A DNA stretch of 64,000 bases from Forficula auricularia (Eukaryota; Arthropoda; Insecta; Dermaptera; Forficulidae). The stretch spans positions 14,813,486 through 14,877,485 of the forward strand of contig JALMQS010000070.1 of NCBI GenBank assembly GCA_024734495.1. The letters run 5' to 3'. This document shows positions 12,311-61,461 of the stretch, piece after piece (the first letter of the stretch is position 1; every line of letters begins with the position of its first letter). A model generated the notes under the pieces. It was not told where the DNA came from and did not search any database. It saw nothing but the letters and a program-made list of their open reading frames with translations. Both the position numbers and the translations under genes were made by a program.

Positions 12311-12348
12311 AACGTTTCGTTGCTGGTTTGCAACCTCTTCAGTGGCTC
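12311..12348 (-). ncRNA. Hammerhead-like ribozyme motif A
   Basis: On the minus strand: CTGAAGA (12342-12336), one free G, stem II GTTGC/GCAAC closing a 6-base loop, then GAAACGTT. The outer stem is GCCA/TGGC. This satisfies the hammerhead core CTGANGA...GAA with the cleavage base U. Stem III is reduced to the self-complementary ACGT. The right-arm copy at 12764-12792 (plus) keeps stem II but has AAAAC in place of GAAAC, so it is probably inactive. Confidence 0.7.
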
Positions 12349-12448
12349 ATTTATTAAACTTATTTGTCTGGAGTTTGAACTAAGAGAAAAACTATTTTCA
12401 AACAGTATCCTTACAAATCACACAATTTTATCAAATAATATAATACAT

Positions 12449-12630
12449 TTTTTTTTTTTTTTGGGGGGGTTTTCGGCCTTTCTAGCCATAAGCCTAATAC
12501 TAGTTATAATTTTTTTAAATTTGTCTCTACCCCCGGGGTAAGATTTTAGCTGGATGCCTCGAGTCGGATTCGAACCCGGGTCCCCTGGTTAGCTCGCTGT
12601 CATGCTACCGCCTAGCCTATCTGACCCCCC
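12449..12630 (-). mobile_element. tRNA-derived SINE, minus strand, 12-bp target duplication
   Basis: Perfect AATATAATACAT duplications (12437-12448 and 12631-12642). Minus-strand reading gives a tRNA-like head with B box GGTTCGAATCC and ends in poly-A (plus-strand T-run at 12449-12462). It landed inside the fold-back element, so it is younger than that element. Confidence 0.9.
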
Positions 12631-12866
12631 AATATAATACATAAACTTTTTAAAACAATGTAATTGTTTCCTGTCAAAATAATTAAAAGAATCAAATTGA
12701 ACAAATTTTTATTTATTATGTACTATTAAAAATTCCAGACAAATAAGTTTAATAAATGAGCCACTGAAGAAGTTGCAAACCAGCAACAAAACGTTTGGCG
12801 TATTTAAATAAAAACTTTGTATTTGATTTAAAGTCATGTCCAACCACCTACGATTCCTTTAATTAA

Positions 12867-13434
12867 ATTAAATTTATTTTAATTTAAAGAAAAAGCTTTT
12901 TCCATGAGTTTCAACTATATCTACAAATTACAGCTATGCTGTTTTTGTTTTATAAACAATTCTTCTACTTATATTTTCATTTTCCAGGAAAAAGCAACAA
13001 ATAAAACTTGCACAGGCCCATGATAATGATAAGAAGCTGTGTTAAATTGCGACATCTGAATGAAAAAAGGTTCCCCCCACTGTTCTAGATTATATTTCAG
13101 AAATCAAAAAGTCAAAGCAGATGATAAAATCAATTATTGTATTTAATCCTTCTAAAGGACAGAGTTAATTTATATGATAGCACCAAAGTAATCAATTCGT
13201 CACTATTATTGATTTTCAATTTTCCAAATATATAAAGAATAATTAGTATGTCTCTGAAAAAATATTATTATTTGTCCTTTTTAAATCTATTTCATACTGG
13301 TCTTAAATAAAAACAATTATATTTATGAAAATAAAAATTAAAAAAAAAAAAGAGAAGATCCAATGAAATAGAAAATATTTATATAAATGAAGAATTAGAT
13401 TATTATAGAGAATAGAAAAAGAGTCGAAAATAAT
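12867..13434. other. Intergenic, nothing recognised
   Basis: AT-rich sequence with no supportable gene. Confidence 0.5.
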
Positions 13435-13625
13435 ATGTACCTATAATTAATGTACAGAATCGGGGAATGTACACATTCACCATCCCCTGGTTAGGTAAAT
13501 GTGAGTTTATTATCTTATAAATATTTACAATACGCACATTTGCAGGTAAATGTGTACATTTCTGTCTGCTTCTTAGGAAATGTGGAAATAGTCGGGAAAT
13601 GTGCATATTTATCGGTAAATATAAA
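13435..13625. repeat. GGTAAATGTGTACATTT iterated repeat
   Basis: Degenerate, spaced copies of GGTAAATGTG and its partly palindromic forms (AATGTACACATT, AATGTGTACATT) fill about 190 bp. A second cluster lies at 14555-14665. It has the look of a MITE interior like that at 11052-11406, but clear terminal repeats were not found. Confidence 0.5.
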
Positions 13626-13956
13626 TATATCTCATTCTAAATAAATATTTGAATCTAATAGTAAATTAATAAAGTTCATTTTCATCCACAGAATTTTTTC
13701 TTTTTTATATTTATTAGCTCCAAATCAACTGTAAAAATTATTAAAATTTAAATTGACTCCATCGAAGTGAAACTGTGCTAAACCTACCCCAACCTAACTG
13801 AATTTAATATAAAAGAAAAGAAAGTTGAATAGAGCTTGTTCCTAAAAGAACTGAACTTAACTTAATTATGAATCAAGACTTGTTTTGGGTCAATTTTTTA
13901 ATAGAACCGAATTTTTAAAACCGAACTCTGATCCCGCCCTAACAATATATATCAGC

Positions 13957-14295
13957 CATAGAGTAATATAGAGTGGAAGGCTACCGTATATCAAAAAAGC
14001 GCTCTCTAGCGACTGCAGGGCGAAAACTCTTAGTTCTTAAAAGCTATCCAAAGATATAGAACATTCAAAGCCTTTGTCATAGATAAAAGATACATACCCT
14101 TTGTTATATATATATATATTATATAAGCGCATTTTTTACTCTTTTCAATGTCACCAAAATTTGCCCCGAAGAGATCGGTTTCCGCCATTTTATTGCCCAA
14201 TGGTTTCGCCTTTGTCTCGCCAGAGAGCTCTGTAACTCGTATACGCTAAAATACATTGGCTCCTTATGGAGCATTCCACTCTATATACTCTTATG
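13957..14295. mobile_element. P-element-like MITE with 8-bp target duplication
   Basis: Ends are CATAGAGTAATATAGAGTGG on the left and CCACTCTATATACTCTTATG on the right. Perfect 8-bp duplications ATATCAGC flank it (13949-13956 and 14296-14303). Eight bases is the P superfamily target size, and the larger relative at 29816-30499 carries a THAP exon. The interior shares GCGCTCTCTAGCG, AAGCCTTTGTCATAGATAAA and GAGAGCTCTGTAACTCGTAT with that copy. No coding sequence here. Confidence 0.8.
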
Positions 14296-15480: not shown

Positions 15481-15569
15481 ACCAACTTAGAAACTAATCT
15501 TCACTAAGAATTCATGCCCAAGAAAAAAATCCAAATAAAATATTTATAAAAAAATCCAATATATATATA

Positions 15570-15980
15570 TATATGTTAACGTTAGATGAACGCGAAAGTT
15601 AAAACTTTTTATCTGGTCACTGCCCCATTTTGGTTCAATTGGGACCAGACTCGCTTTTGTCACTGAACCAAGAGTTGAAAAAAGATATGAACCCAGTCGG
15701 GCACGATCCGACATCCTCCGCGTTAAGCCCGCAGATGCCTTTTCCATTTAAGCGATGGGTCCCCAACTAGGTCACATAATCAAATGGAAAATGGAAATAA
15801 TTAAATGGAAAAGGCATCTGCGGGCCTAACGCAGAAGATGTCGGATCGTACCCGACTGGGCTCATATCTTTTTCAACTCTTGGTTCAGCATCAAAAACGA
15901 GTCTGGTCCCAATTGCACCAAAATAGGGCAGTGACCAGATAAAAAGTTTTAACTTTCGCGTTCATCTAAAGTTAACATAT
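15570..15980. repeat. Fold-back element whose arms carry a tRNA-like head
   Basis: Arms 15574-15760 and 15790-15978 are inverted copies separated by about 30 bp. Each arm, read outward from the centre, has an A-box-like stretch CGCTTAAATGG, an anticodon-arm-like CTGCG/CGCGG hairpin and a T-arm-like GTCGG/CCGAC with a 7-base loop. This looks like two head-to-head copies of a tRNA-derived SINE. The B-box loop (ATCGTGC) departs from the consensus, so transcription is uncertain. Confidence 0.7.
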
Positions 15981-16816
15981 AAACAATCTAAATAAAATTT
16001 ATTATTGAATATCTGAACAAAATTCATCTGTTTCGATTCCCCAAAGCATTAGACAGATGGGCATTGTAGTAAATATATATGTATGTTTTTTGCATCAATC
16101 AGAGGACACCCGCATTTTTCTCTTAAAAACTCCAACAGTCTTATTATAATCAAAACTTTAATTTTGTTTTAAAATATTTAAATATTTATTTTTATTAGAT
16201 CCTTTTGTAAAAATGAAAGAAAAAAATATTCTCTTTAATTATAATAATGTATTTAGTTGTGGAGGAAATTAAGATTGACAAAATAATTATTAGATAGTTC
16301 AATGTTAATTAAATGAAATCGAGAATCCCATAGAATCTCATTGGATTAATGTTAATAAAAAAAATACATTGTGAATGAAAACTGGGTTCTAAGGACTAGA
16401 AATAACTTGTCAATTCATATTTAATAAAAAATGACTACCCTAAATGGATAGAACGAAACAAATAAATAATGATAATACATAAAACACATACGACACAATA
16501 ATATGAGAACTTTTTAAAATTCAAGAGGGGAATTAATGGTTGACGAAAAATATATTTAATAAATTAAGAATATTATATATATATATACAATCTAACTAAA
16601 TACTTTGCGTTCTCCCCGTTGAGAAGAAAAAACTATAATTGTGAACCCTAAGAGTCTTTTTTTTAATATAAATATTAATAAATTTGCTTTTGTCATTTGG
16701 AAACAAAAAAAAAAAAAATAAACTAAAAAGAGATATTGAAGAAAAGATTAATTTATATAATGGAATTCATTTTGGCGATTGATTTTACCCACATCACTCT
16801 TGATGGTGATTTATTT
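15981..16816. other. Downstream flank of Mau2, nothing recognised
   Basis: AT-rich intergenic or 3' UTR sequence of Mau2 (transcribed from the right). A minus-strand AATAAA lies at 16815-16810, almost touching the stop codon. Other AT-rich candidates follow further downstream, so the true poly-A site is undecided. Confidence 0.45.
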
Positions 16817-19800: not shown

Positions 19801-22800
19801 CCCTGCACTTGAGGCACTACTTAAAGGAGAATTAAATTATTATTCTTATGGGAGAAAATATTTTGTTTCTCAGATTATTCTGCCAAAAGATGTCAAGAGG
19901 GGTGAATTTGCAAATAATTTAGATGTACGAGGTTTGTTCAAAAGAAAAGGTGAATTTTGAATTTTCGCGGGCTGTGTACATTCGATTATCGAAATTTTTT
20001 GTTATGTTGGTACACATGTGTTAGTCATATGTTGGCATTATCAGCCCATTTGGATTAGTAGTTTGTTGTTGTTGTTGTTGTTTGTGTGTGTTCTTCGATT
20101 TTTGACTTTTGAAAAAAATGAATCAAAGAATACGTGGAAAAAAAAAATCATGGATTCTGCATCACGATAATGCACCAGCTCACACATCAATGCTTGTTGG
20201 CCAAAAACAACACCCTAATCATGCCTCAACCAACTTATTCAGCAGATTTGGCTCCCTGCGACTTTTTCCTATTCCCAAAACTGAAGAGGCCAATGAAAGG
20301 AAAGCGTTTTGCCACAATTGATGAGATAAAGTCAGAATCGAAGAACGAGCTGATGGCCATACCGAAAAGCGCATTTCAGAAGTGCTTCGAGGATTGGAAG
20401 AAGCGCTGGCATAAGTGCATTATATCTGAGGGGGATTACTTTGAAGGGGACAAAATGGATATTGATGAATAAATAAATACTTTTCAAAAAAATATAAACT
20501 TCACCTTTTCTTTTGAACAAACATGGTAATTATTAATTCTATATATCTTGAAGAGATGTCATGTTTGAAGCGATTTTCATGATAAAATTGACTAATAATA
20601 TAATTTTAATGAATTGGCTAAGGGGCCAGTTATGGGAAAAAGTTGAAATAAAAGTTATCTCTTATTTAATACTTTATTTTAAGCAGACGTAATCGATATT
20701 TTACACGTTTCGAGCGCTACACCGCTGCTCTTCATCAGTGCACGTAAGCTGGAAAAGATTAGTGCATGTCTTAAATTTTTGTTTTAAACTTTTATAATAA
20801 ATTTTTAAAGGGTGGAATTGAGGTTTATATAGTGACTCAGCCAAGTCACAAAAACAGGCACAGTTTAACTCCAGCAGACGTTTTACATTTAGAATAATTT
20901 CACTGGTAAACAAGCTATTACAACAGAACAATTGCAATTAATGTCCTTCGTTCTGCCTTCATTTTACATATATAGAACCCATCATCCCCATAAAGTATTA
21001 AATAAGAGATAACTTTTAATTCAACTTTTTCCTATAACTGGCCCCTTATCCAATTCATTAAAATAAAATAGGGCCGCCAAACACAGTTCTATTTAAATAA
21101 TAATAATAATGTTTACTTGGCTTCATTATAACGTCCTTGGAAGAACGACTGCAATCCTTGGACGTAATAAGCTGCTGCTCGAAGTGAATGTGAATGAGAC
21201 GGCAAGGATTCTGGATTTATTCGCTCAAAAAGCGCTGCGAAATCCTGATCCCGCTTGGCTCTTAAATACACAATTGCTAAATTTAGATTTGAAAAAGTCC
21301 AGAGTTCTCTCTCTTGTGATGTCTGTGTAAAGAAATAAAATATTTCATTAGAAAAAAAATAATACATATTTTAAAAGCATAATCTTAAACTTAAAATATT
21401 AATTAATTTTAAAAAGTTAAATATAATTAAAACAGGAATGTCAGGGAATTGGACAATAAATAAAAAACAGTTTTTATTAAATGGGCCAGACGTTTCGTCG
21501 ATTTATTTCGACTTCCTCAGTGGCCCATTTCATCACTCTTTGTCAAAAGACAATTCCACTATGCGATGAAACATCTTTAATCTTTTTTATTATAACTACA
21601 ATACATTCTTGGCCTCAATTATTCAACAATCTTGAACCTTTTTATCTCCTTTTAACAATTAAAAAATCAAAATTCTTATAAAAATCCTTTATGTTGTTTT
21701 TATTTTTAAACAGAAAAGCATCTAAATTTATAATTTTCTCATTAATATATCAAAGAATAATTAATTCATTAACGAGAATTGTTTTTGATCGCGCTTTTTA
21801 AACAAGATATATATCGCGAGACTACTGCTGGTTGAGGCTATTGGAGTCTGTTGAGTCTTAAGTCTGGACCAAGAGAGAAAGAAAAAGATGTGATCCATTT
21901 ACGCTAAACGCGAAATGATGCTGGATTATAGCTAAATGGATCATATCTTTTTCATTCTCTCTTGGTCCAGACTTAAGACTCGGCAGACTCTAATAGCCTC
22001 AACCAGCAGTAGTCTCACGATATATATCTTGTTTAAAAAGCGCGATCAAAAATATGTTAATTATTCTTTAATATATTAATGAGAAAATTATAAATTTATT
22101 TAACTTCATTATTTCAAGTTAGAAATATATAAATTCGGATATTATTTTCCTTTAGGTAATATTTGACAAAAATCACCTGCTTTCGAAGCGCGATTGAATC
22201 AAATACAGGAAACTTATGATACAAAGCATCTGTTCAAAAATAAAAACATTTTTTATTTATTGTCCAATTCCCTGCTATTCCTGTTTTAATTAATACTTAT
22301 AAAGGATGCGAGTGATATACCGTTAAATATAATTTTTTTTTATTTGGCTCTTTGAATAGTTAAAAGAGAAATATTTATTAAAGCAAAGATAGAATTTAAC
22401 TTTGTTTTATGGCCTAATACTGCGATTCCTAATCTTGGAGTAATATGACCCATGGCCGTTGATTTTTACTAATAGAGAAAATACGGCCCTGTTAATCCTT
22501 ACCTATATATATCTCAATGTTAACATGTTTGTGTGAAATTTTAAAAATTCCGACAGAGGGCCTAAAGGAGAGCTTTTTTAAATTTGCTATTTATTTTAAT
22601 TGTAAATTCATTAGATATATATTTAACGAGAGGATTACCGATGGCGGTTAGGCGAAGCCCCCGGACTTGGAAACTTATTACACTTTTAAATTTTATTTTG
22701 TTCTTTATATCGGGTGTTTTTTTTAGAGGTATAGAACTTCGAATTGAAACAAAACACAAGAAAATCGTTTTAATGTCCATCAATTTGGCTTTATTGGAAG

Positions 22801-28800: not shown

Positions 28801-31800
28801 GGTTAAAATCGGAAAACCGGAAGTGTACATTTACATGAAAGATTTTCGTTTTTTTTTTATTTTCTCAAAAATAACTAACGATTTTTTTAAAAATTAGTTT
28901 TTTTATCAAGTGACATGAGTTATTAGTTGTGTCAAATTTTTAATCCGATTGAAATAAAGGAAGGGGTTGTAAATTAGGAGTGTCGTAAAATAAATATTTT
29001 AATCGTTCATATCTCGTCTTCGGAAAGTCGTAGAGCCTTGAAATTTGAAAGTTAAGCTATCTAGAGGCTACAAGAACTATAGAAAAACTGGAAGTTGATG
29101 TTTACGTACATAAGAATAATACTTTAGGTCTAAAAATTTTCCTCCAAAATTTTTACCACAAAATATTATAATATGAATAAATAAGGGAACAACCATCCAG
29201 CACCCTGTATGAAGATTTTCTACTTGATATTGATATTATTAATATACTACTCTTTGAAATTATAAATCGGGTTTGTGAGATTCCGGGGTTAATTCCACAA
29301 ATACACAACGTTTAATCTTAATTTTCGTCAAGCATAATCGAATTAAAATTACAAGTGCTTATGCTTGATTATCATCTATATTTCAACTATTACATCTATG
29401 TATTCATTATTAATTTGATTATAATATCTTACTGTATACTACTAATTTTAACAATAAAAATTAAATAATATGAATGCTTATTTATTATCATTGTTTTGTC
29501 TATTTATTATTTTTAAGTGTAGTATCCAATGTATCTTTTGGTTATTTGTCATAGTGTATAGGTATATTATTGTTCATTATTTACTATCTTTTTTAACAAG
29601 TATAATTTATGTGTAGCCCAAGATATTTTTTCTTCATCCAGCAACCCAAGATTGGACACCCGTGATATATAGAATTAATAATTAGATAAAATCAAGCGAA
29701 TTCACCCTTCTGGACATTTATTGATAGAAAGCTATCGGGAAACGAATTCTATTTTAAATGAAAAGATATTGTTCTGTCGAGAGTAGCAAAGTTGTTGAAT
29801 CACAAATATGTATAACATAGAGTAATATAGAGTGGAAGGCTACCGAATATCGAAAAGCGCTCTCTAGCGGCTCGGAGCACATTATTCTTAGGCCCGGTTG
29901 TATGTCGCAAAGTAAATGCTTTTTACCACTAACCAAGGGTAGATGGTAAATGGAGGGGCTGGGATGGACAATCAGATGACAGGAACTTTCCGTGCCTGTC
30001 ATCTGAATGGTCATCCCAGGTCCTCCATTTACCATCTACCGTTTGTTAGTGGTAAAAGCATTTACTTGCGACATTAACCGGCCTAATCATTAAGAGCTAT
30101 TCAAAGCCTTTGTCATAGATAAAAGATTCATACAGGCTTTGTGCTTAAAGTTCATTTAGAAAATTTTCCAACGTACAAATTTATAGATTAAAATATTATT
30201 AAATATGCCTAGTTCTCGACGTCAATGTTTTGTGAAAGGTTGCTTTCGCGACACAAAATCAGATAAAGAACATACTTTTTTTAAACGACCTAAAAATCCT
30301 GAAATGTAAGTACCCTATATAAAATTAAATAGTAATTTATTTCTTTGATTTATACATGTTAATTCTTTAATAATTTAATTATGAGCTAAAGGGGTCCCGC
30401 CATTTTAATGCCCATTCCGAACCGCCAGAGAGCTCTGTAACTCGTATACGCTAAAATACATTGGCTCCTATGGGGCCTTCCATTCTATATTACTCTATGG
30501 TCTATGTTTTCTACTGCCTGTTTAAAAAAAGGGCGCACTAATCAAAATTTATATAGGTATAACGCCTATTTCAAGAAATGGTATCAAAAATTTGATGCTC
30601 ATTAATCAAAACTGCACTAATCAAGGGATTCCTGTATATATAATTTATTTATTTGTGTAGTTTCGAAGTTTTGACCGTCATTATCAGTCTTTTTAATTAT
30701 AAATACTTAATTTGTTATTTCTCATGGGTTCAATTAACCGATTTGATATAGATAAATTCGTTTTTTTTGTTATAGCAAGCAGGCTGCCTACATAACAAAA
30801 GATTGACTTTGTCAATAGTTGTTTTATCATTCCTTTTTAAAGCAATTTTTTCAAAAATTGCAAATTTCCATTGATAAATGGAGAATTTCTCCTGAAACTT
30901 CTGAATTTTTAATAAACTTTTCTAGATTGTTCTATAAAAGATTTGTATTTATTTATATATAATAAACCTAGATATTTATATATACATATAAATATGTTTA
31001 ATTGCAGAATCTCATTGATTTCTCTTTAAAAATCTATTCCCCCATAAGAATAATGTATTTACTTTCCCATTAGTCCCCGAATAACAAGCTCTATATTATT
31101 TATAAATATATATATAAAAATAAAAAACTCACCGCCAGTTGAAATATTAACCTACAGTGCCAGTAGACATTATGCTGGGAAAGTTCAATTGCTTTTCTTA
31201 AAATTGGCTTAGAGAGATTGGAGAGGGTTTGTTGTTCGTAAAGTTCAGCAAGAACACTGGCAGCTTCGAATTTCACATCGTCAAAAGCATTTATGACTTC
31301 TGATGATATCCACTGTGAAACAAAAAAAAAATAAAATAAAAATTTAATTAAAATCAAAACATAGTTTAATTTAAAAATATAGATAAATAAGAGTCATGTA
31401 CAAGTACAAAACTTATTCTTTGTAAAAATGTTGACACACTCTTAGATAATAAGCTGCCTTAGATATTAACAGTGGTAATAACCATAGTAGCAAACAATAA
31501 ATTTCTAACGAAATCACGAGTGATTTTCTATTAAATCCGATCTGTCATGGATAATTTTTATTACATGTTAGAAGGTTTATATTCATTTTTTAGGGAAGTG
31601 AACCCGAATGCCAAAAAACAATCCTGGCTTACCTTCGAAGTGAACCCAACTGATATTATGTATGGGACTAAATGACATTTGGGTTCACTTCCCGAGAGAG
31701 TGAATACAAGCCTTCTGGAATGTAATAAAAATTACCCATGCAGCTAGGATTTAGTAGATAAATCTCCCAGGATTTCTTTAATGTTATTGTCTAATTTCTG

Positions 31801-33029
31801 AGAACTTAAGAATTTAAATGAAATATCGCTAAGATAGTTTGTTAGATGAATATTATATAAAAGTAGTAGGAAAGTTGAGATTTCTAAAATTGTCAACTGC
31901 TAAATCCGAGGTGTAATGGATATTTTTAATATACATATGTGAGGGGATTGTATTTATTCCCTCAAAAATTGAGATCTAGAGTCAAATATCAAGCGGGGCA
32001 ATGGCTTGCCCTCCGAAGCTAATCCATTCTGGCATAAATAATAACACGGGAAAAAATTTACTCCATGATTCAATTTTCATTCAAAAATGCCGGTGTCATT
32101 TGATTCTAAATCTAAACATTCAGTTTAACCATATAGTTTAAATAGAATTTGGTGAGGTTTTGGATTTTTGAAGATTCTCAAAAATTCAATGAAAATTAAA
32201 TTTTTAAATTAATATTAAAATTAAAATTGCTGATAGTAGCAGAGTTAAGATTTCTAAAGAAAATCACGAGAGATTTTAATGCTTGGAGGTTCTTACAGAT
32301 GCACGACATATTCGAGACAGGGAGGAATTTAGGCGTTGTATAATGAGAGAGCCTAAAACAACCTCTGGATCTGAGACTTTATCAGGCTCTTATTTTTAAA
32401 CTTTGATGAAGAAGAGACAAGTAATTATATACTATAAACATTTTAAAGCAAAAGCCTAATGAAGTCTCAATGGGAGAGAACGTGTATCTGATTCGAAATA
32501 AAGTATTTTATTTATAAAATATATCCAAATCTAAATTTCCGATACTTTCACTTTATTTAATCTATCAAATATTATTTGAATATAAAAATATCATAATCAC
32601 AAAGAGATCGGTGATATTTTATTTTTCTCACCTAAATTGTTTTTTTTTTATCCTTAACCAATTTATATAGAGAGAGAAAAAAGAGGTTGTCCTCTGCTTG
32701 ATGCAAATAAACATACACATATATATATATATATATATAAATTATATATTATTTATTTGTTTGAGACTATAGTTTCGGAGGCTTGGCCCTCATCATCAAA
32801 CTTTTTAATTATAAATATTATTTTTCATGGGATCAGTATCAGTTTAGATATTGAAATTTTTTTTCCTTCTTTCTCAGCTTGTGAGCCAGGCAGAATTAAA
32901 AATACCTAGGAAAGAAGGGAAAATTTTTTCAATATCTAAAATGATACTGATGACATGAAAAATAATATTTATAATTAAAAAGACTGATGATGAGGGCCAA
33001 GCCTTCGAAACTATAGTCTCAAACAAATA

Positions 33030-33073
<44 letters not shown>

Positions 33074-36000
33074 ATGTTTATTTGCATCAAGCAGAGGACA
33101 ACCTCTTTGTTTCTCTCTAAGAATCAACAACTCTGTTACTCTCGGCAAAATAAAAACTTTTAAATTTATATATGACTTAAAATGAAAATGATCGAAACTA
33201 ATTAAGATTATATTATATATATAATATGTCAATCGAAGAGAGGAATTAGAAATGATTGATTGTAAACAAAAATATTAGTAAATAATTATATAGGCTAATT
33301 AGAGATAATGTTTTACTAAATATTATTAATTTATTATAACAATTGTATATACATTTTGTAGAGCTTAAAGTCTCAAAATAAGACAAAACCTCGTTAATTC
33401 GAAATGAACTATTTTAAAGAAATCAGGAGAGGTTGACTTCTACTAAATTCGAGCTGTTATAGTTAAATTTCAGTACAGTCAGAAGGGTTGTATCATATTT
33501 ATTAAATTTAAAATCACTAAACCGCAAAACTTTACCAATGAATATTAAATTTGAGTGAAATATTTAGCGTGATTTTAAGGTTGATTCACAACGAGTGTAA
33601 AATTTTTTAGGCAATTATTAGATAGGTCATTTTAATTAAAAATTTTTATATGAACTTAGTTAGGTTGGTTAGATTTTACAGAACTAAACCTTTTCCAATT
33701 TTATATCAGAAAATCCCAATTGTATTTGAGAATTATCAAAATGAATATTAGAAAATCTCAGTTGTAGGTATTTTAGAAAATGTCAATTGTATTTCAGAAA
33801 ATAAACATATAAACAGTAACTATATAATTGATATTTTCTAATATTCAATTGAAAATTCTGAAATACAATTGGGGTTTTCTGAAATATACATGAAAAAGAT
33901 GTAGAGATGGTGAAATTTTTATTTAGAAATATCTACATACATTTAATATCTATTTAACAATGAAAAGAATACACAATATTGATTGTTATTTCGATAGCTC
34001 ACAAAAATGCTCAAAATGGGCTCTTTGAGATCGTAAGCAAACTTGATACTTGTGAGTTATTGAGTCATAAATCTGTATCATGATATTATGAAGCAAATTT
34101 GAGTGCCAGTATCCATTATTCTTTGCGAGATTTATTTCAATACTGTGAACGAGACCCATTAGGTGACCTCAAGGGTGTTATGTTCTGTTTTAAAATAACA
34201 ATTAAGAATTTCATTAATAAATAGATATTAAATTTATGTACACATGAGGATTTTTAAATAAAATTTTGGTTAGCTGTAGTTCTGTAAGAGATTTAAATAG
34301 GAAATATCTTCATATAACATTTTTTGTTTAAAATAACCTCTCCAATAATTGAACAATTTTGTTTTGCTAAGAGTTGTAGATACATAAAGGGAAAGCAATG
34401 AGGTTGTCCTCTGTTTGATGGAAATAAACATATGCAAATCGTTTTTTATGTGGCTAGCTTGCAATAACAAATTGAACAATTTTGTTTTGCTGAGAGTTGT
34501 TGATTTATAAAGGGAAAGCAATGAGGTTGTCCTCTGTTTGATGCAAATAAACATATACAAATCGTTTTTTTATGTGGCTAGCTTGAAATAACAAATTGAA
34601 CAATTTTGTTTTGCTGAGAGTTGTTGATAATTAGTAGAGATTGTGGTGTTGGTGCAAGGTGAAACATCTTTATGAGAGTTGTTGATTTTTAAAGGGAAAG
34701 CAATGAGGTTATCCTCTGTTTGATGCAAATATACATATACAAATCGTATTTTATGTGGTTAGCTTGCAATAACAACAAAAATCCAATAGGGAAATTGAAA
34801 CCATGTGAAATAACATATAAAATATTTCTAATTAAAAGACTGATGAAAAAGGTTAAACCTTCTCTAACAAATTAATTTTATATATACCTATATATTTAGT
34901 ATATTCGTTATATATATACTATATATCTGGTTAGAAAAGAAAAAAAAATATTGATTGTTTATATAAATGAAAAAATATAAATCTTTTATAAAAAACAATC
35001 CAAAACACGTTTATTTAAAAGCCAAATGTTTAGGGAGAATTTCTCGCTTTTTCCAATGGTTCATTGAACGTTTGGCTTTTGAATAAACGTGTTTTGGATT
35101 ATTTTTTATAAAGATATTGTATTTTTTCATAAATCTGTTTATTTAGATCAAGTAGAGGATAACCTCAATAATTTCCCTTTATCCCCAATAATTGTCTATA
35201 AAGTTTTTTTACACTAGTTGTGAATCACACTCTGTATATGTCAGATGGGTTCGCCTCAGTAGACAATCCATTGGCCAGGTTTATTAATTAGCACTTGGGT
35301 TTAATTCCTGAGGGGTGAATACAACACTTCTGACATTTAATAAAAAATTATAAATAACAGCTGGGATTTAGTAGAATAGTACAATATTTCATTTCTTTAG
35401 AATTTTAAAGAGAATTTGAATTTTTATAAAATATTTCATTAATAAAAGATATCTAGTAATTGAATGTAAAAATATCAAGATCAAATCGAGATCGATGAGA
35501 TTTTGTTTCTCCCGCCTAAATTTTTTTTTATGGTTAACGAATTTATATGATTTAAAAATGAAAATTATTGAAACCAATTTTATATTATATTTTAAAATAA
35601 TGTTTGATTTTTGATATTAATGATGAATGAAAAAAAGAATCGAAAACGCCAGGAGACAAAATTTTATGGGACAAATATGTCAATCGAAGAGAGAAATTAG
35701 AAATGATTAATTGTAAATTTCATTAATAGATATTAAATTTATATGTACATATGAGGATTTTTAAATAAAATTTTGGTTAGTTCTGTAAGAGATTTAAATA
35801 GGAAATATGTTCATATAACATTTTTTGCTTAAAATATCCTCTCCAATAATTGAACAATTTTGTTTTGCTGAGAGTTGTTGATTCATAAAGGGAAAGCAAT
35901 GAGGTTGTCCTCTGTTTGATGCAAATAAACATACAAATCGTTTTTTATTTGGCTATCTTGCAATAACAACAAAACGAATTTATCAATATCCAATAGGGAA

Positions 36001-38314: not shown

Positions 38315-38516
38315 TTAATAAAGTAAAGGGTGTGTAGTTTCACAGTGAATGAAATAAAACTCAAAGAGGTTTATACAAACTCAACATATTTTAGTTTAGT
38401 TTTAACTTGTAAACTCCTGATGATGGACTAATAATCCGAAATATATTGAGTTTGTATAAACCTCTTTGAGTTTTATTTCATTCACTGTGAAACTACACAC
38501 CCTTTACTTTATTAAT
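38315..38516. repeat. Fold-back element with hammerhead-like motif at its tip
   Basis: Arms CCCTTTACTTTATTAA / TTAATAAAGTAAAGGG and GTTTATACAAACTC / GAGTTTGTATAAAC pair for about 90 bp. The motif at 38411-38453 lies at the turn. Confidence 0.85.
38411..38453 (+). ncRNA. Hammerhead-like ribozyme motif G, complete
   Basis: Stem I 5' strand AAACTC, core CTGATGA (38417-38423), free T, stem II GGA/TCC with 7-base loop, GAA, 6-base palindrome ATATAT (38441-38446), cleavage base T (38447), and stem I 3' strand GAGTTT. All core positions match the hammerhead consensus. Stem II is only 3 bp. Confidence 0.7.
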
Positions 38517-38870
38517 TAATATCATGTTTCACCTAAAACCTACACCACTTTCCCTAAGTACAATCTTATACATTGCACTATAGTGAATATCGGAAAATTT
38601 ACATACATATTTAATTATAATTAAGAAACCCTTCTTATCATTTTTATAAAAAACTAAACCAACATTAAACAATAAGTAATACATATTTTAAGACAATTTT
38701 GATTCATAGTTACAACACAGTTTCTGAGATAATAATGAATAAATAATGAAAAATGTATAAAAAAATTCACACTAAAAACAATTTGACAACAGCGCATTTA
38801 TTTAATAAAGCGAGCATGCGCTAGATTTTTTCAAAATTATAATTTTCATATGGTGTAACGTAGGAGTTGA

Positions 38871-40275: not shown

Positions 40276-40292
40276 CTAATTTACTAATTATA

Positions 40293-41245: not shown

Positions 41246-44200
41246 ATGGCTACTTCGACACCCTCTCCAGATGTGCCAATGAACGCCGAAAATTTCGAAC
41301 CCTTGGACCCTTCTTTACAAAATATCATTGATCAGAATTCTCTGCGATGGATTTTCGTGGGCGGAAAAGGAGGAGTCGGAAAAACCACTTGCAGGTTTAC
41401 ATTTAATCCAAAATAACCATCATAAAGAATAACAAAGAGGTTGTCCTCTGCTTTTGATGCAAATAAATATGTCTATGTTTATTTGCATCAAGCTGAGGAC
41501 AACCTCTTTGTTTCTCTGTATGATTCAACAACTCTGCTACTCTCGGCAAAACAAAATCTCTTCTACCAAAATAACCTCTTAATCACATAATCACATACCT
41601 CAATGACAAGAATGATTTCGTAGAATTTATTTCAACCAAAACATTCTGTAAAAAACAGGCCAAGTTCGAAAAAGTAGTGAAATCTTGTGAGTAGCCAAGT
41701 TAAATTCGCCAAGAATAAATAAGTTGAGAAAATAGTAGATCTCTCAACTTGATTATTCTTAATTATTCTTGGCGAATTTAACTGGCTACTCACTAGATTT
41801 CACTACTTTTTCGAACTTGGCCTGTTTTTTTACAGAATGTTTTGGTTGGGATTTCTCTTCTTTTTGTAAGCTATGAGGAAGCCCCTTCGTCCAAAGGGCT
41901 AGAATTTTCATTTTTGCCCCCCCCCCCCATTTTGGGTGGTTAGTTTTTGCATTTCTACCCTTCAGTGGGCCCACAGAATATGTATACAAAATTTGGTTGA
42001 GTTTGGTCCAACGGGCTAGAATTTTCATTTTTGAGCCCCCCCATTTTGGGTGGTTAGTTTTTGTTTTTCTAGCCTTCTGGGGGCCCACAGAATATGTATT
42101 TGACTTTTCTGTTTACATTCTTCAAGATCTCACTATGATTACTCTTAAAGTTCAATTTCGAGTCAACCACTACGCCGAGGTATTTAAATGAATCCACATA
42201 TTCCAAATTTACACCATTCAGATAGATTGGACTTAACCCTTTAGTTAGTTGCTTCTAGAACCTCCGGAACATGGTTAAAACTCACAACATATATTCGTTT
42301 TATCTTTATGAAATCTACCTAGTTTTTAATTTACTCTTAATCAGACCATGGTTTGAAAGATTATAAACCTACCGAAGATTTACTATTCTAATTATCAGGC
42401 TCAAATACGGACATTCAATCAATATCTGTTCCAGATTGAACTTAGAGAACACCCGTTTTGCGAATACGTTGGAATTTCGGTGCATGCAACTCTTCTAGGG
42501 AAAATAGCTTCAAACATTTTTTATATGAAAATTTTATCATTTTAATAATTATCGTATCCGTAAATTCCTCTACTCTTACTAGTATTGATAAAGGATGAAA
42601 CTTTTCCATATAACCTAATCGATTCTCTTTTTTTATTAATTTTTTCAGCTGCAGTCTTGCTGTTCAACTATCGAAAGTTCGTGAAAGTGTTTTAATTATC
42701 TCAACGGATCCAGCTCATAATATTTCTGATGCTTTTAATCAAAAATTTTCAAAAGTTCCAACTAAAGTGCAAGGATTTGAAAATCTTTTTGCAATGGTAT
42801 TTGATTCAACTAATATTCATGTATTATTTATAAAGAAATCATTAGGTCTTCAACTAAATCCACGCATAGATAGATAATCTCGAGGGGTGAACCGCGACCT
42901 AAAATCGTGTACACCTACTTCCACTTCCACTTTCAATTCCAAGTGGAAGACAATAGATGACAATAGATTTTCTAATGAATTCCAAAGTAATTCCAAATAA
43001 TTCCAAAGATGGTGTACACCTAATTCCAATCGCGGTTCACCCCTCGGCTAATCTTGATTACATGTCCTCTGCCCTCAAATCCAATTGCTACCATGTGAGA
43101 TGGACCCATCTAAGATATGTATCACTCTAAATATTTCACTCAAAAATTTCATCTTCATTTGTAAAATTTCGCAATCTAATGATTCTGAATTTTAACATAT
43201 AGCCATGCCAGGATTTAGTAAAAGACAATCTCTCGTGATTTCTTTAGAAACTTAAGGTAGTTGTTTCACCATATGGGTTTTCTTAGGATTTTTTTGAAAT
43301 TTAGACAGATTATTATTTAAATACTTCTGCATCGATTGGTGGCAAAACAAAATTTATGAACAATATAGTTCCGGAGATATTAAATTCCAAAGATAAGAGT
43401 TTTTCAGACTCTTATACATTGCTCTCTATACGGGATATCGGAAAGTTTACATACATATTTAATTATAATTAAGAAACTCTTCTTACCATTGTTATAAAAA
43501 ACTAAACCAACATTAAACCATAACTAATACATTTTTAAGAAAATTTTAATTCATAGTTACAACACAGTTTCTGAGATAATAATGAATAAATAATGAAAAA
43601 TTTACACCAAAAACAAGCTGACAACAACGCATGTATTTAACCTAAAAAGTGGGTTAACTTTAGTAATTTTTTTGACGTTTTTTCGCTTCAGCCATTGTCG
43701 CAACAGTTTTCAATCGCTTATTAAGAACTTTTTGTTTTATAAATCTCCCTTTATAATGTACTTTATCTGAAATTTCTATGATAAAATATATACAAGCTCG
43801 GACAGTGTTGCCAGATTTGTCAAACGACTACGGGATTGGCTAGTAGTCGTACATAAAGAGCATAAACTTTTGGGCTTATGAATTATGAATCCTTATTGTC
43901 TGTTCCATATACTCTAGCATTAACTTTTTGCTAGTATTATCTCGAAACAACTACCTGTTTTTTCTGCAATTTGAACTTTTTTATTATTAATATTAATTTT
44001 ATTTGTTAATATTATAAGCTATTTATTTCATTTGTTCTTGTTCTCTAGGAAATCGATCCCAATGTTGGCTTTCAAGAATTGCCTGAGGAATATTTTGAAG
44101 GCGAAAATGAAGCCATGAGGTTAAGCAAAGGTGTAATGCAAGAAATTGTGAGCGCTTTTCCAGGGATCGATGAGGCTATGAGCTATGCCGAAGTTATGAA

Positions 44201-47200
44201 GTAGGTTTACTTTTGATTTGACCTCAATTCTAATAGATACAATGACGCCTCGTCATAATAGAAAGATAATTTTAAAAATTAAATTAGAAAATATAGTTAA
44301 AATTGAATGTAATGGAAGGCAGCCCAGGGGTAGTGAGGAAAGAAAAAATTAACACATATCAAATAAGGTGTAATTTATTGGAATCCTTCCTCCTTTCCTT
44401 TCAAACCGACGTTTCGGAGGATTTTTCCCTCCTTCTTCAGGTTTTGAAAGGAAAGGAGGAAGGATTCCAATAAATTACACCTTATTTGATGTGTTAATTT
44501 TTCCTTCCTCATTACCCCTGGGCTGCCTTCCATTACATTCAATTAAAATTTCTACCAGTCCGTCTCTCTCCAGAGAAAATTTCGTTGCAAAAAAAATATA
44601 GTTAAAATTTTAGAAAAATTCTAGCACGAGCCTAGAATCGAACCCGAATCTTTCACGTATCCGGGCTGATACTGTTTATACATTAAGCTAGTGGCGTACC
44701 TAGGGGGGTGCGGAGGGTGCGGTCCGCACCGGGCGACACATATTTTGGGGCGGCATTTTTTATATTTAGTTATAGTTGTAAAAAACAACTTGTTCTCTTC
44801 ATAAGTTTACTATTCGATTATGAATTACCATATGATTTCGAATATTTTTCCTCGTCGTCAAGTAAATGTAGGATAGAAAATATTATTAATTATATTAGAT
44901 AGCATCAAGCAGAGGACAACCTCTTTGTTTCTCTTTATTAATCAACAACTCTGCTACTCTCGGCAAAATAAAAACTTGTCAATTCAAATAAAAACTTTTT
45001 AAGAAAATATTATCTCTAAAAATCTAAAAAAAAGCGCTTGAAGGCCCTCTTGATCTACTAAAATTTATTCAACAGTATAGATGGGAAATTCTGTATCCAA
45101 TATTATAATTTTGCTAAGAATTTTTTTAACAATTGCTATCAGTGTTGTTAATTGCGAAAGGAGCTTCTCCAAATTGAAGTTGATAATTTTTTTTTTTGTA
45201 AATTAGTTATATGTTTTATCTCATAGGTGGGGAACCAGCGGCCTCCTTAAGTTTCTTGTGGCCTTTAAAAAAGTATCTTGTATTTTTATAAAAGTTTCAT
45301 TTATAGGTATATCAACTTATGCGGCCTCCTTTATTACTGCCTAATTTAAATATGGCATCCAATGGTATACCTATAGTTTGTCTCAATTACAATTATTTAT
45401 TATTGTTTATTAATTTATAAAAACCATCAATTTATAAACTTAGAAAGGACGGAAAAAGTTCTAGGTACGCCACTGCATTAAGCTACAGGTTCCAATCTCA
45501 AACCACTCCCAGATGATGATAGTTTTTATGAAAAAGACCCAGGTTTTAATTACCGTTTGTTCTATAGGTTTTCCGGTCAATAAATAATACATTAATCCCT
45601 TAATCATTCATATCCAAGCTTTGATTCTTTTATTAGATCATCATCATGTTTACCATATAAACTGATTCGATAGCAATATAAATACGATCTAATAAATATC
45701 GAAAGTTTTATGTTTATGAGGCCAGCTTGCTAAAACAACAAAACCAAGGCAATAGCCAGCAAACAATTTCAGTGAGGGTTAGTTAATTTTCGGTCGGAGG
45801 GTAGCTAGCTACCTAGCGAGCGAGATGTTAGGATAATATAGACATACTCCTAGGAGTGGGAGACATGACACCCTGATGCCCAGATTGCTTTTTTTAGCAG
45901 AGTATTATTTTTATTCATATCTATTCAATACCCTGAAGAAGAAGAGAAACAAGTCTTCGAAATGTCGGAATTTGAATAAAATTTTAAATAATTCATGGAC
46001 TGCCTTTCATTATTTATTTATTATATTAGACGGACTAAAGTCCTTTTACACTATATATATACATATATATATATATATATACAATAATTTTTTTTTAATA
46101 TAAATTCAAGTGGGTAATACATATAAAGAATATATAAAGAACATAAAGATTATACATATATATATATATAAAAATAATTTTAAATATAAATCCAAGAATA
46201 TATAAAGAACATAAAGATTTTATAAATTATTATAAATATATTATAACCTACTTATTTCGCTTACCAGTCCGTCTTTCTAAGAAAATAAATAACATTAAAC
46301 TATTTTTATTAAATTTTTATTGAACGTTTTATTTATATCCTGTAAAATTTTGATCCTTAACTCAACATTTCGGGGGTGGGGGTAATACTAACCCCTCCCT
46401 CCCCGCACTAGATAGGGCCATGAACAAAACGAATATTTTTAATCCTATCTCAATCCTATAATAATGAATAAACTATGATAATATTTTCCCCAGACTTGTA
46501 AAAGGTATGAACTTCTCCGTTGTGGTTTTCGACACTGCACCTACAGGCCATACTTTAAGACTTCTCTCTTTTCCTCAAGTAGTGGAAAAAGGTTTAGGAA
46601 AATTAATGAGGCTCAAAATGAAGGTTACCCCATTTATTTCACAGGTGAGATATGATTAATATAGTTATTTTATTAAAATTACTATTTTCCTACTTAATCT
46701 AATTTTTCATTTTAGTTGTCTTCCTTAATGGGATTTAATGAGTTCAATGCTGAATCCTTTTCTTCAAAAATGGAAGATATGCTCAGTATAATTCGACAAG
46801 TCAACGAGCAATTTAAAAATCCGGTAAACATTTTTTAGATTAAAAATTTTAATTTCAAAACAAAAATTTGAAAAAAAGTTGAAAAAAAATTATATATAAA
46901 AATATGTCAGAAGAGTACTTTTCACTCCCTCGAGAATCGAACCAAATTCTCAAAATTAGCAATCTGGGCCAATTGGCCAGAGTTGAGCCCCTCTGACATA
47001 AGTATCCGGCTAAATAAAACAATCTTCTGGCATATAATTAAAAATATTACGTCACTCAATAAGTCCCCGGTCTGACACATATATGGCAACATTTTGACAG
47101 ATCCACATAATTTCCGGGTAGTACTAACCTTCAAACAGTATGTGTCAAAATTTCATGGCATTCTGACCGTTAGTTTAGAGGTTACAGTCGTTTTAGTGAC

Positions 47201-50200: not shown

Positions 50201-53200
50201 TTTAACTAAGCTTTGTTATTTAATTATTTTCACCAAATTGCGATCACGTCTTATTAAGAAAATAAAGGGGTAGCACGAGGATGTGAATGTGAATCACCCT
50301 TAATGCCCATACGTTTGATAAAGTTAATAAGCTGACGTGTTCTGATGTGGCCATCCACTTGAATTTACCATTACACCCTGGCCCCTCACTTATATTTAAT
50401 AAAATTATTTATAATCATCTAGGGGGGGGGGGGTAGTTTTTGCAGTTTTAGACTTCTGGGGGCCCGCTGATTATGTATACAAAATTTGGTTGAGTTTGGT
50501 TCATAGACCTATATTTTCATTTTTTGGACCTACAACCCCCCCCCCCCATTTTGACCGGTTAGTTTTTGCATTTTTAGGCTTCTGAAGGACCAATAATTAT
50601 GTATAAAAAATTTGGTTGAGTTTGGTACAAGGGCCTAGATTTTCATTTTTTGAACCTACAACCCCCCCCCCCCCCCATTTTGACCGGTTAGTTTTTGCAT
50701 TTTTAGGCTTCTGAAGGACCAATAATTATGTATACAAAATTTGGTTGAGTTTGGTACAAGGGCCTAGATTTTCATTTTCTGACTCTACACCCCCCCCCCC
50801 TCCCCCCATTTCGGCGGGCTGTTAGTTTTTGCATTTTTAGACTTCTATGTGCCCACGGATTATGTATACAAAATTTGGTTGACTTTGGTACAAGGGGCTA
50901 TATTTTCATTTTCTGACCCCCCCCCATTTTGGCCAGTTAGTTTTTGCATTTTTAGACTTCTGGGGGTCCTCTGATTATGTATACAAAATTTGGTTGAGTT
51001 TGCTCAAATGGCCTAGATTTTTAATTTTTAACCCCCCTCCACCCCCCACTAATTTTGGGTCGATATGCACCAATTTCAATCAGCTCTTAATCTCAATGCG
51101 CCAAAACTACGTGTGAAATTTGGTTTTGATATTCCTATTAGTTTTTGAGCTAACTCGTCCACAAAATTTGGTAACGCACAGACTAACAGAATAACAGACT
51201 AACAGACATTTTGAGAAAACAATTATTATCTCGTAAAATATAATTTTTTCGATGTTCAATTATTAGGGCTTTTTTGTAGACCGAAATGGCCATGGTTTCG
51301 CTCAATTTTTTAAATCAAAATAGTTTCAGCCGTTTTTTAGATATTTCGAAAAAAGAAGCAAAAAAAAATACTTTTTTCATGCACGATTACAATACTTGAC
51401 CATACCCTGTATGGTAAAGTAAAAAATCATCGATTAACATATTGCATTTTTTCAGGATCAAACTACGTTTATATGTGTTTGCATTGCTGAATTTTTATCC
51501 TTATATGAAACTGAACGATTAGTCCAAGAATTAACCAAATGTGGCATTGATACGCATAATATAATCGTCAATCAACTTTTATTTCCTGCGAAAAATGATA
51601 AACCTTGTCGAATGTGTTCGGCCCGCCATCTTGTTCAAAAGAAATATTTAGATCAGGTAAGAAAAGATATTATTCTATATTCTAAATATTTAGACTTCAT
51701 GTAAATAAAATCAAAAATAATTTAAACACGACATTTCTTCTACTTTATTTGAGGCTTTTTCTAGCTCTTGATTGTTTTACAATAGGTTTATTGAATATTC
51801 TTTTATTGAAAAATCTACATTGTTAATCAAACTATGTATATTGAAATAAAATACATTAATGTTGTTAGAGTTCGTGGCTGTGATGGAACCGAGGGGTGAT
51901 CCGCGTTTGGAAGTAGGTGTACACCTCTTTGGAAGTATTTTGGAAGTACTTGGAAATATTTGGAAGTACTTGGAAATATTTGGAAGTACTTGGAAATATT
52001 TGGAAGTGCTTGGGAATGTTTGAAAGTGCTTGGAAATATTTGGAAGTGCTTGGAAATATTTGGAAGTACTTGGAAATATTTGAAGAACTTGGAAATATTT
52101 GAAGAGTACTTTTAAATATTTGGAAGTACTTGGAAATATTTGGAAGTGCTTGGAAATATTTGGAAATACTTGGAAATATTTGGAAGTACTTTTAAATATT
52201 TGGAAGTGCATGGAAATGTTGGAAGTACTTGGAAATATTCGGAGTACTTGGAAATATTTGGAAGTACTTGGGAATGTTTGGAAAGTGCTTGGAAATGTTT
52301 GGAAGCGCTTGGAAATATTTGGAAGAACTTGGAAATATTTGGAAGTACAAGTGGAAGTAGGTGTACAGCATATTAGGTCGCGGTTCACCCTCGGGTGGAA
52401 CTGTAGTAGATGAAGTTGGATGCACCTGGGTTCAATAAAACACCTTGAATAAAACGTTTCGGCCTGAATTTATTTGGCCATCTTGTATTAATTGGGCTAC
52501 AAAATTTACAAATAGATGTTAACATTGATATATTTTTATGCTTATTATCATAATATTACAAGTTGACCAAGTCGGTTGTTTAACTCAGTTATACCTCAAA
52601 ATGCAGGCACATATGCTGATTGAACCAACAAGCCTTGTCAAAAATAAAAATTGTAGCTTCATGTGGAGTAAATTTATAACGTGCCTGTGCCCATAGGTTC
52701 AAAATGAATGTAATGAGTTTATATAAATTGTTTTCTATATAATTACTGTAAGTTTAAACAACCAACTTGGTCAACTTGTAATATTATGATAATAAGCATA
52801 AAATATATCAATGTTAACATCTATTTGTAAATTTTGTAGCCCAATTAACTGAAGATGGCCAAATAAATTCAGGCCGAAACGTTTTATTCAGGGTGTTTTA
52901 TTGAACCCAGCGCATCCAACTTTGGCTGATACCTCCTCCTTCATCTAATACAAAATGGATTAATTACTGGTACTTGATAATTTTAGAATATGTTTCATTC
53001 TATATTAATGATATCATTTTAAGAGCTTGATAAAGTATCAAATAAATAAAAATAAAACGGAAACGTCACTATCATACAGTGTGTCCCAAAAATCTGGACA
53101 CATAAGCAAAAATACATATTTATTCATTTATCCCTATGACATATAGAGACTGGAACTCTCTTCCCCCGAACGTCTTTCCAGCAAATTATAACCTCCAATC

Positions 53201-57255: not shown

Positions 57256-57410
57256 TAGTATGTGTGTAATATTAACATAAAATCTTTTAAATGGGCCAAT
57301 ATAATAAATAACAATAAAATAATTTTGTGTATGGTCAAAAATAAATAAAAAATAGTTCTAACTAAAAAAACCGAGCTTTCCTTTATCTTATAAACATTTT
57401 TAAAATAAAT

Positions 57411-57632: not shown

Positions 57633-57691
57633 TGATTTTTAAGATACATACGAATTAAAACATTAAGTACTTACTGTATTAAAAAATATAA

Positions 57692-59274: not shown

Positions 59275-59670
59275 AAACCGACTTCAAAAAAATTAAATGC
59301 AACAAATAAAATAATAAGTAGGTACTCAAAAATCAAATAAAATGCACTAAAAGGTATAAAATAATTATCTTATTTAGTTACAACTAAACGACGAAATATT
59401 AACATGAAATCACTTTTTGAAATCGGTGCAAAAAATATACATTTTATGAATCGAAATCGAAGGATCTTAGTACGTTTGGCGGGTACGCTCGTTAATATAG
59501 TTTGTTTGGCACCGACTTCAAAAAGTGATTTCATGTTAATATTTCGTCGTTTAGTTGTAACTAAATAAGATAATAATTATTTTATACCTTTTAGTGCATT
59601 TTATTTGATTTTTGAGTACCTACTTATTATTTTATTTGTTGCATTTAATTTTTTGAAGTCGGTTTTATTT
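59275..59670. repeat. Fold-back element with ACCGACTTCAAAAA ends
   Basis: Arms of about 170 bp: CCGACTTCAAAAAAATTAA, AACTAAACGACGAAATATTA and complements; the loop has GGCGGGTACGCTCG. A second, shorter copy is at 62755-63025. Confidence 0.85.
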
Positions 59671-60424
59671 ATTTATTTTTTAAATTATTTTTATTTTTCT
59701 CTTTTATTTTTTTATTTGTTTTAGTCGTGTTATTAATAGTAACTTAATATAATTAATACCTTGCATGCATCTAGTAAGAGAAAGCGTCGGGCGAATGAAT
59801 CAGAAAATGATAATAAAATTCAATTCATAAATATAGAAATTCTCTCGAAACGTTTGTTGGTTTTAAAGGAATGTTTTCAGATTGATTTTTTTATAAAAGG
59901 TTTTATTTATTATAATTTCGATTATTTGCTCATAAGAATTGGAGATTTACGTTATTTCGTCATTGATCATATCATCAGAACTTGACCAAATTAATATGGG
60001 ACCACCCCTAAGGTACCCCATTTTCAATAAAAAAAGAATCATCGAAATCGGTCAACGTGGCAAAAAGTTATCGCTAAACAGACATAAAATAATAATAAAT
60101 AAATAGTTAGGTATCTTGGAGCTATACTGATCCAAACGCAGAAAGAATCATTAAAATCGGTTCATAAACAAAAAAGTTATGCCCGAACAAACATAACAAA
60201 AAAGGTCCAATACCAATGAAATTTATATTTTTACCATTCGGAAACTAGACTGAAACCAATGCAAAAATAATCATCAAAATCGGTTTATGAACCTAATTTA
60301 TGAACATAATTGGCGAAGAAATCAGGTAACATAGACACAAAAAAAAATCAGTCGAATTGAGAACCTCCTCCTTTTTTAAAGTCGGTTAAATAGTTTAAAG
60401 CGCATAAACACTTATTCATTGAGA
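59671..60424. repeat. Repeat tail ending AAAGTCGGTTAA
   Basis: 60000-60385 has repeated ATCATCGAAATCGGT- and AAAAAGTTATGCCC-type phrases and ends CTTTTTTAAAGTCGGTTAA. An inverted relative lies at 62540-62715. It looks like a retroelement tail associated with the ACCGACTTC fold-backs. The 74-codon frame at 59761-59985 is not supported as a gene. Confidence 0.5.
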
Positions 60425-60660
60425 CAGCGAGTCGAGAGAGGCGATAAGGTTCGGATAGTAAATTAGCCTGATAACTTGTTTCTGAATTTCATCCAGGGTT
60501 ACAAAAGAATACTTAGAGGCTCCTCTAGACAAATATGAACTGTATTCAAGACTGGGGTGGATTTAGGCCTTGAGAGTGAAAAGTTGCAAGGTCGTGAAGA
60601 ATCTCCATTGAACCTCATCTTTGCTTGAGCAATTCTGGATTTTGTGAATAATTTTAATAT
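60425..60660 (-). pseudogene. CR1/Jockey-like LINE reverse transcriptase fragment
   Basis: Minus-strand translation gives LEYSSYLSRGASKYSF, then TLDEIQKQVIRLIYYPNL, with a shift upstream. This is the same domain as at 17200-17690. Only about 75 residues remain. Confidence 0.75.
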
Positions 60661-60706
60661 AATCTAGTTGTAAAAATTCCTAAACATTAACGTAGCCAAG
60701 ACGAAG

Positions 60707-61359
60707 GTGATGATCATCACCAGAGAGCCCCAGATGTTCACAAATACTGAAATAATGCACAATGGAAGACCTATTGAACGAGTCAACAAATTCAAATATC
60801 TAGGAACATGGCTCTGCGAAGAATGGACATCGGACACTGAAAACAAAAGCCGTATTGAACAAGCTCGCAACGCCTTTTTTAATTGCAGGAAAGTGCTCAC
60901 TTGCACCGATTTCGACCTGAACCTCAGACTAAGGTTCGCAAGGTGCTATGTCTGGTCAGTACTTCTCTACGGGATGGAAGGCTGGACCCTAAAAGTAAAC
61001 ACCATTAATAAATTAGAAGCCTTCGAGATGTGGGTCTACCGTAGGATCCTCAAGATACCATGGACGGCAAAAATAAGTAATGAGGGAGTACTAATAAGGA
61101 TCAACAAAGGCCGTGAATTATACAACACCGTGAAGAAGAGGAAGGTGCCTATCTGGGACATATAATGAGAAGTGCAAAATACCAATTATTACAGCTGATT
61201 ATAGAAGGAAAGATAGAGGGGAGGCGAGGAATGGGAAGGAAGAAGATGTCTTGGTTGCGGAATAACAGACACTGGACGGGTCTCAGAAGCGTTCAAGAGC
61301 TTCTACACACCGCTAGGAACAGAGAAGGAATGCGGAATGGGGTCGCGAACATCCATTAA
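60707..61359 (+). pseudogene. RTE/BovB-like LINE reverse transcriptase, C-terminal fragment
   Basis: The first frame (60707-61165) carries FKYLGTWLCEEWTSD, VWSVLLYGMEGWTLK and LEAFEMWVYRRILKIPWTAK. After a frame change it continues (61165-61359) with EGRRGMGRKKMSWLR and ends. This is the same portion of the protein as at 7450-8226, but clearly a different family member. The palm is missing. Confidence 0.85.
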
Positions 61360-61428
61360 TGGATAAGCAGTCGAAGAAGAAGAAAAATTCTTATCGATGA
61401 ACATCGCTTTTATATTAATTTATAGATC

Positions 61429-61461
61429 CTGAGGAAAAAGGGAAAATCCTCCGAAACGTCG
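61429..61461 (+). ncRNA. Diverged hammerhead-like motif M
   Basis: CTGAGGA and GAAACGTC are intact, but the stem II arms (AAAGG against CCTCC) pair at only about three positions. It is a relative of motif C. Probably inactive. Confidence 0.4.

Follow-up and report, generated by a model that had tools for sequence, protein, structure and literature searches.

Minimal hammerhead motifs in palindromic, probably Penelope-type insertions of Forficula auricularia

Cervera and de la Pena in 2014 and Lunse et al. in 2017 reportedly described minimal type I hammerhead ribozymes in Penelope-like elements and in Terminons. Passages of three papers (PMC7761336, PMC6155905, PMC7229834) present such hammerheads as having a missing or tiny helix III, as dispersed in thousands of copies over animal genomes and as linked to pseudo-long terminal repeats (pseudo-LTRs), and the title of one report states that Penelope hammerheads cleave as dimers. 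Penelope elements of Adineta vaga have, according to passages of PMC3846280, inverted, mostly head-to-head pseudo-LTRs with palindromic junctions, an optional one-sided tail of 31 bp, target-site duplications (TSDs) of 8–10 bp and sometimes unrelated DNA captured between the pseudo-LTRs; these passages favor self-priming. For PAc, the Poseidon element of Anolis carolinensis, the pertinent parts of PMC11167929 give a cut at +26 and starts of reverse transcription mostly at +111–118, with a 30–40-bp tail between two start sites, cutting and extension of both target strands, AT-rich targets, and a hammerhead that cleaves only with protein and whose mutants leave in vitro insertion unchanged. Here we describe a 64,000-nucleotide stretch of the Forficula auricularia genome (assembly GCA_024734495.1, contig JALMQS010000070.1, forward-strand positions 14,813,486–14,877,485; hereafter the window), whose recurrent ribozyme-like motifs, judged by their sequence, are very probably minimal type I hammerheads in short non-coding Penelope-type insertions of several lineages. 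With the published Penelope-like and Terminon hammerheads, as those passages present them, the window has in common the type I core, the missing or tiny helix III, the dispersed copies and the pseudo-LTR link; a free base before stem II and, in one family (F4), an eight-base self-complementary segment may set it apart. The kind is already known, and what this analysis adds is the covariation of stem I, the self-complementary forms of stem III and the anatomy of the insertions.

The motif (CTGANGA, one free base, a hairpin and GAAA) was present at all nine places at which a sequence-only reading of the window had listed it, although the coordinates given for four plus-strand sites (36613, 38411, 45922 and 52840) were 6–11 bases too low. 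Named by the position of C3, the minus-strand copies are 12342 (motif 12303–12350, predicted cut after 12311), 20738 (20696–20746), 21520 (21481–21528, predicted cut after 21489) and 44440 (44400–44448, predicted cut after 44408), and the plus-strand copies are 32984 (32976–33027, predicted cut after 33018), 36620 (36612–36659), 38417 (38409–38456), 45933 (45925–45974) and 52849 (52841–52891, predicted cut after 52883). Three altered copies add to these, namely 12764(+) (12756–12803), an inverted copy of 12342; 52445–52491(−), an inverted copy of 52849; and the decayed 61429(+) (61421–61468). Two of the three copies previously called decayed, 12764 and 61429, are altered motifs; the third, 36047, is a decayed relative of 32984.

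A strict descriptor (core, 0–2 free bases, Watson-Crick stem, GAAA) scanned over the window found eight sites with a stem of at least three pairs, each with exactly one free base, whereas dinucleotide shuffles (n = 100) gave means of 0.08 with one free base and 0.25 with 0–2. With at least four pairs, six sites stood against 0.02 in shuffles, and among 180 permuted cores the true core had six sites and the next best one. Shuffles and permuted cores together rule out chance or composition as the source of the motif. Copy 32984 passes the strict descriptor only if a G-U pair is allowed; a looser scan (G-U and one mismatch permitted, GAA instead of GAAA) added 44083(+), 48875(+) and 27718(−), which lacked further support and were not counted. 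The usual arrangement, in which stem II follows A9 directly, had no strict site in the window; wherever stem II was intact, one free base came before it. The earlier statement that every copy carries one extra base holds for nine of ten sites; in the tenth, 61429, the first two pairs of stem II are disrupted. One viroid hammerhead has an extra core nucleotide, according to the title of a report.

The fold predicted for these copies is that of a hammerhead with a minimal stem III, a self-complementary segment taking the place of that stem. The core (C3-U-G-A-N-G-A9, G12-A-A, A15.1, U16.1, H17) is complete in 8 of 11 sites, the exceptions being 12764 (G12 changed), 20738 (G at position 17, and stem I mostly lost) and 61429 (letters intact, two stem II pairs broken); 52445–52491 has a changed core. 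Ten of the 11 have C or T at position 17. Seven sites have ACGT as the segment from A15.1 to U16.1, two have ATATAT, and ATGT and ACTATAGT (the latter in 32984) occur once each; the segment is self-complementary in ten, and in the eleventh too if G-U is counted, against a background of 145/423 four-base, 32/458 six-base and 13/386 eight-base segments. The covariation of stem II proposed from the letters was borne out, and an outer stem I, which had been overlooked, emerged from the bases flanking the motif, which pair and covary as well (9 of 9 pairs in 21520). An alignment of seven sites and 13 pairs in stems I and II had 79.1% of its cells paired (49.2% in shuffles), changes on both sides in 12 pairs (matched by 2 of 500 shuffles) and a covariation score of 0.773 (0.228 when shuffled, at most 0.205 when the alignment was slid), values to be read with the small number of sequences in mind and with the structure having been derived from those same sequences. 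Over ten sites, stem I paired at 58 of 80 and stem II at 44 of 50 positions, each matched by none of 5000 shuffles; stem II without the three weakest sites kept 32 of 35 pairs, matched by one shuffle. Because H17 of 36620, 38417 and 32984 was placed with pairing in view, stem I was also scored at a fixed offset in the other seven sites alone, where it retained 41 of 56 pairs (matched by 16 of 20,000 shuffles). Core, covarying stems and the self-complementary 15.1–16.1 segment together support the hammerhead identity first suggested by the letters.

The same features bear on whether the copies, granted a Penelope-type descent, are by now inert fossils without ribozyme activity. This is possible, if doubtful: the changed cores of 12764 and 52445–52491, the broken stem II of 61429, the G at position 17 of 20738 and the decay of F4 copies speak for it, whereas in 12342, 21520, 44440, 45933 and 52849 the core letters and stem II are preserved and position 17 is a permitted base. 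Pairing conserved between lineages argues for active source elements, not for the activity of each copy.

As for the relations among the copies, the sequence-only reading had counted at least eight unrelated families, a number that did not survive, since several share flanks or core variants; we count about six or seven lineages. BLAST at E 1e-4 linked flanks only inside single families. The 3′ flank of 12342/12764 recurs at 21520 (scores of 44 and 52, where the best of 100 shuffles reached 34 and 33), while the flank link between 44440 and 61429 is weak (30 versus 26) and other weak similarities (33–35 versus shuffle bests of 31–33) were not used. The core variant GAAATATATT is common to 36620 and 38417. 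Family F4 comprises 32984, 36047 and stretches near 15390, 30713, 34673 and 56890.

A model (R1) trained on seven sites, which it scored at 37–59 bits, was applied to the held-out copies and gave 47 bits for 12764 and 24 bits for 52445–52491, both inverted copies of trained sites, and 18 bits (E 0.03) for 38417. A non-hammerhead hairpin at 11879–11921(−) reached 17 bits (E 0.05); the matches at 11879(−), 11951(+) and 30863(+) were assigned to a separate hairpin family and not counted. That family, CATTGA..GGAGAATTTCTCC..GAAAC, lies at 11879–11997 and 30863–30909 and receives weak hammerhead-model scores. In viral contigs the pattern matched 13 times, with a stem II of at least five pairs in six. 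R1 scored 11 of these 13 at E ≤1, E-values that are biased because the loci were picked by the pattern itself; the best, L007 (28.9 bits) and L004 (27.3 bits), are outscored by the seven training sites and by 12764 but outscore 52445, 38417, 36620 and 32984. The stretches L004:2070–2119 and L007:6722–6771 combine the motif with a seven-pair stem II, a partly paired stem I and 27–29 bits, and may be chance or real hammerheads.

The surroundings of the motifs point to insertions of a particular build. The window, with a GC content of 30.5%, contains 47 inverted-arm elements (23.9% coverage), most of them without a motif, and 10 of 12 motif copies, or 8 of 10 loci (binomial P 0.0003), fall within such elements. 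In each of the six elements with an off-centre motif of their own, that motif faces outward, as does 36620 (inside an F4 element and perhaps nested); 44440 lies two bases from the centre of its element (inward by script label). From motif to outer arm end there are 39–107 bases in the six off-centre elements and the centred one, and 189 for 36620. Set beside the PAc spacing, with its cut at +26 and starts at +111–118, as excerpted from PMC11167929, these distances count for Penelope-type insertions, and PAc is further alike, in the same excerpts, in its hammerhead upstream of the reverse transcription starts, its tail between two starts, its AT-rich targets and its cutting and extension of both strands. 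The inverted arms also bear on retrozymes, which are small repeats in tandem that carry type I hammerheads and are copied via circular RNA. Animal retrozymes do have type I hammerheads with a weak stem III, according to passages of PMC7229834 and PMC7761336, but the arms here are inverted and not tandem, no motif-bearing unit is repeated on the same strand within any element (20738 and 21520, which share a strand, belong to separate elements), and a retrozyme origin appears most improbable.

Direct repeats flanking seven motif elements, with a tail permitted on either side, measured 17, 13, 10, 8, 8, 7 and 0 bp; random placements (n = 4000) reached 17, 13, 10 and 8 bp in 0.4, 0.7, 2.9 and 17.7% of cases. 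Each of the three longest repeats is found beyond a tail present on one side only (48, 29 and 44 bases, respectively). They belong to the palindromic element at 44288–44609 around motif 44440 (17 bp, AAAATATAGTTAAAATT; tail 44545–44592), the element at 21416–22334 (13 bp, GTTAAATATAATT; tail 22293–22321) and the F4 element at 32660–33172 (10 bp, AATTTATATA; tail 33119–33162). The other four are 12241–12865, with 136-nucleotide inverted arms, an outward motif in each and a direct repeat of 8 bp only; 20593–21105, with 80-nucleotide arms and an 8-bp repeat beyond a 28-base tail; the palindromic 38310–38520 around motif 38417, without a convincing direct repeat; and 52402–52952, with long inverted arms, a motif in each and no direct repeat found.

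The F4 tail CTGCTACYCTCGGCAMAA has nine matches at up to three mismatches (0.06 expected). In 14 tail copies, the opposite arm starts 4–14 bases ahead of the tail motif in eight (two sharing one arm), tails stand at both ends in two, and four show other distances (−26, +37, −54 and −55); direct repeats of at least 10 bp flank 7 of the 14, a count without a separate control. Among 16 motif-free palindromes, two have direct repeats of at least 11 bp, 12055–12149 (12 bp, tail 46) and 41419–41524 (11 bp, tail 41), both with the F4 tail. Three stretches, 12049–12195, 41419–41565 and 7373–8512, are motif-free and combine an F4-type tail, inverted arms and direct repeats (12, 11 and 12 bp); the last spans 1.1 kb and holds an open reading frame (ORF) of 155 amino acids (aa) without a Pfam match, which we take to resemble a piece of a non-LTR retrotransposon. 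At 34352–36897, two F4 copies about 1.2–1.5 kb apart have identical direct-repeat letters (CAATTATTGG), probably a local duplication, and the two are for that reason not independent. A further palindrome, of 412 bases (15570–15981), contains a tRNA-Lys (CTT) call at 15688–15762(−).

Tails and repeats also weigh on a reading of the motifs as the ends of palindromic DNA transposons resembling miniature inverted-repeat transposable elements, with the hairpin acting as DNA for a transposase and not as a ribozyme. DNA transposons leave a duplication of fixed length beside symmetrical ends. The window is indeed rich in palindromes, most of them motif-free, and holds mariner-type transposase pieces (Pfam), but the tails described here are one-sided and the direct repeats unequal (10–17 bp), and the core letters are single-stranded and strand-specific beside covarying stems I and II, so that we hold a transposon origin to be very unlikely. 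The Penelope link, which the sequence-only reading had proposed, is supported by the head-to-head arms and, in some of the elements, by one-sided tails and direct repeats; nothing was seen in favor of its alternative that the motifs were domesticated. The likeness extends, as far as passages of PMC3846280 describe the Adineta vaga elements, to head-to-head inverted arms, junction palindromes, an optional one-sided tail, unrelated DNA between the arms and, in three window elements, putative TSDs, which measure 10–17 bp as against 8–10 bp there. In contrast to those elements, no coding region was found in the window's, and the word "ribozyme" is absent from the text of PMC3846280.

A number of results weigh against assigning these copies to hammerheads in Penelope-type insertions. 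No Rfam hammerhead family had a match at E 10 in the window and two short stretches. R1 was not significant for 36620 (E 0.67) and 32984 (E 1.4), and the weak scores of 38417, 36620 and 32984 fall below some of the viral stretches picked by the pattern; shuffled versions of 38417 fold as well as the copy itself, and in 45933 some core bases are paired in the best fold. Two of ten loci (45933 and 61429) have no inverted arms, and four of seven elements (8, 8, 7 and 0 bp) no convincing direct repeat. The repeat-search windows were widened twice after first looks, with the control rerun for each of the last two, and the 17-bp repeat was first seen as 8 and then 12 bp, the 10-bp repeat first as 6. 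No element carries two motifs on the same strand, the layout expected for dimer cleavage in cis. Finally, in the 10 scanned of 12 ORFs of at least 110 aa, the Pfam matches included neither a reverse transcriptase nor a GIY-YIG domain. Penelope coding remnants inside the elements were rejected on inspection, by eye only, of 23 ORFs of at least 50 aa, and ORFs from an ATG inside four motifs stop after a few codons (by eye). With no Penelope coding domain found in the 10 scanned ORFs, the motif elements would be non-autonomous copies, non-coding where PAc, in the parts of PMC11167929 that describe it, is autonomous with an ORF starting in the ribozyme. A minus-strand ORF at 18027–18368 matches the cohesin loading factor family PF10345 and is probably a host exon.

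Under the Penelope-type reading, a reverse transcriptase encoded elsewhere would cut AT-rich DNA on both strands and start to copy the RNA downstream of the ribozyme, from one or other of two sites, and two complementary DNAs (cDNAs) joining head to head, or one folded back, would yield a palindrome with a one-sided tail. In the RNA, the ribozyme's cut would follow position 17 and would probably take place in a dimer or with the help of protein; the likeliest use of the ribozyme would be to trim transcripts to unit length. Two-ended priming would explain the outward motifs, the unequal arms and the foreign DNA in the middle, and our data do not separate it from self-priming. In one of the seven elements, 44288–44609, the palindrome turns at the ribozyme itself; its inner arms (52 bases) are 98% complementary, the flaw nearest the apex sits in stem I, and the turn could come from fold-back priming on stem I or from cDNA run-off at cleaved RNA. 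A bolder and unlikely proposal is that the ribozyme shapes insertion: two template RNAs would pair via the self-complementary segment (4, 6 or 8 bases by lineage), a dimeric Penelope enzyme would carry them and cut and extend both strands, and the cDNAs would join head to head. The exact turn of 44288–44609 at the ribozyme looks as if its turning point had been set by the ribozyme hairpin within the cDNA or by run-off where the RNA was cleaved.

If that proposal were true, the hammerhead would contribute to the formation of palindromic inserts in addition to trimming RNA. The window shows a hammerhead variant that the Rfam models did not match here, and its short non-coding copies, with motif, arm ends and some tails and direct repeats, are natural data on where the palindrome turns relative to the cut. 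The same copies could show if elements with an intact ribozyme differ in their insertion from those with a broken one.

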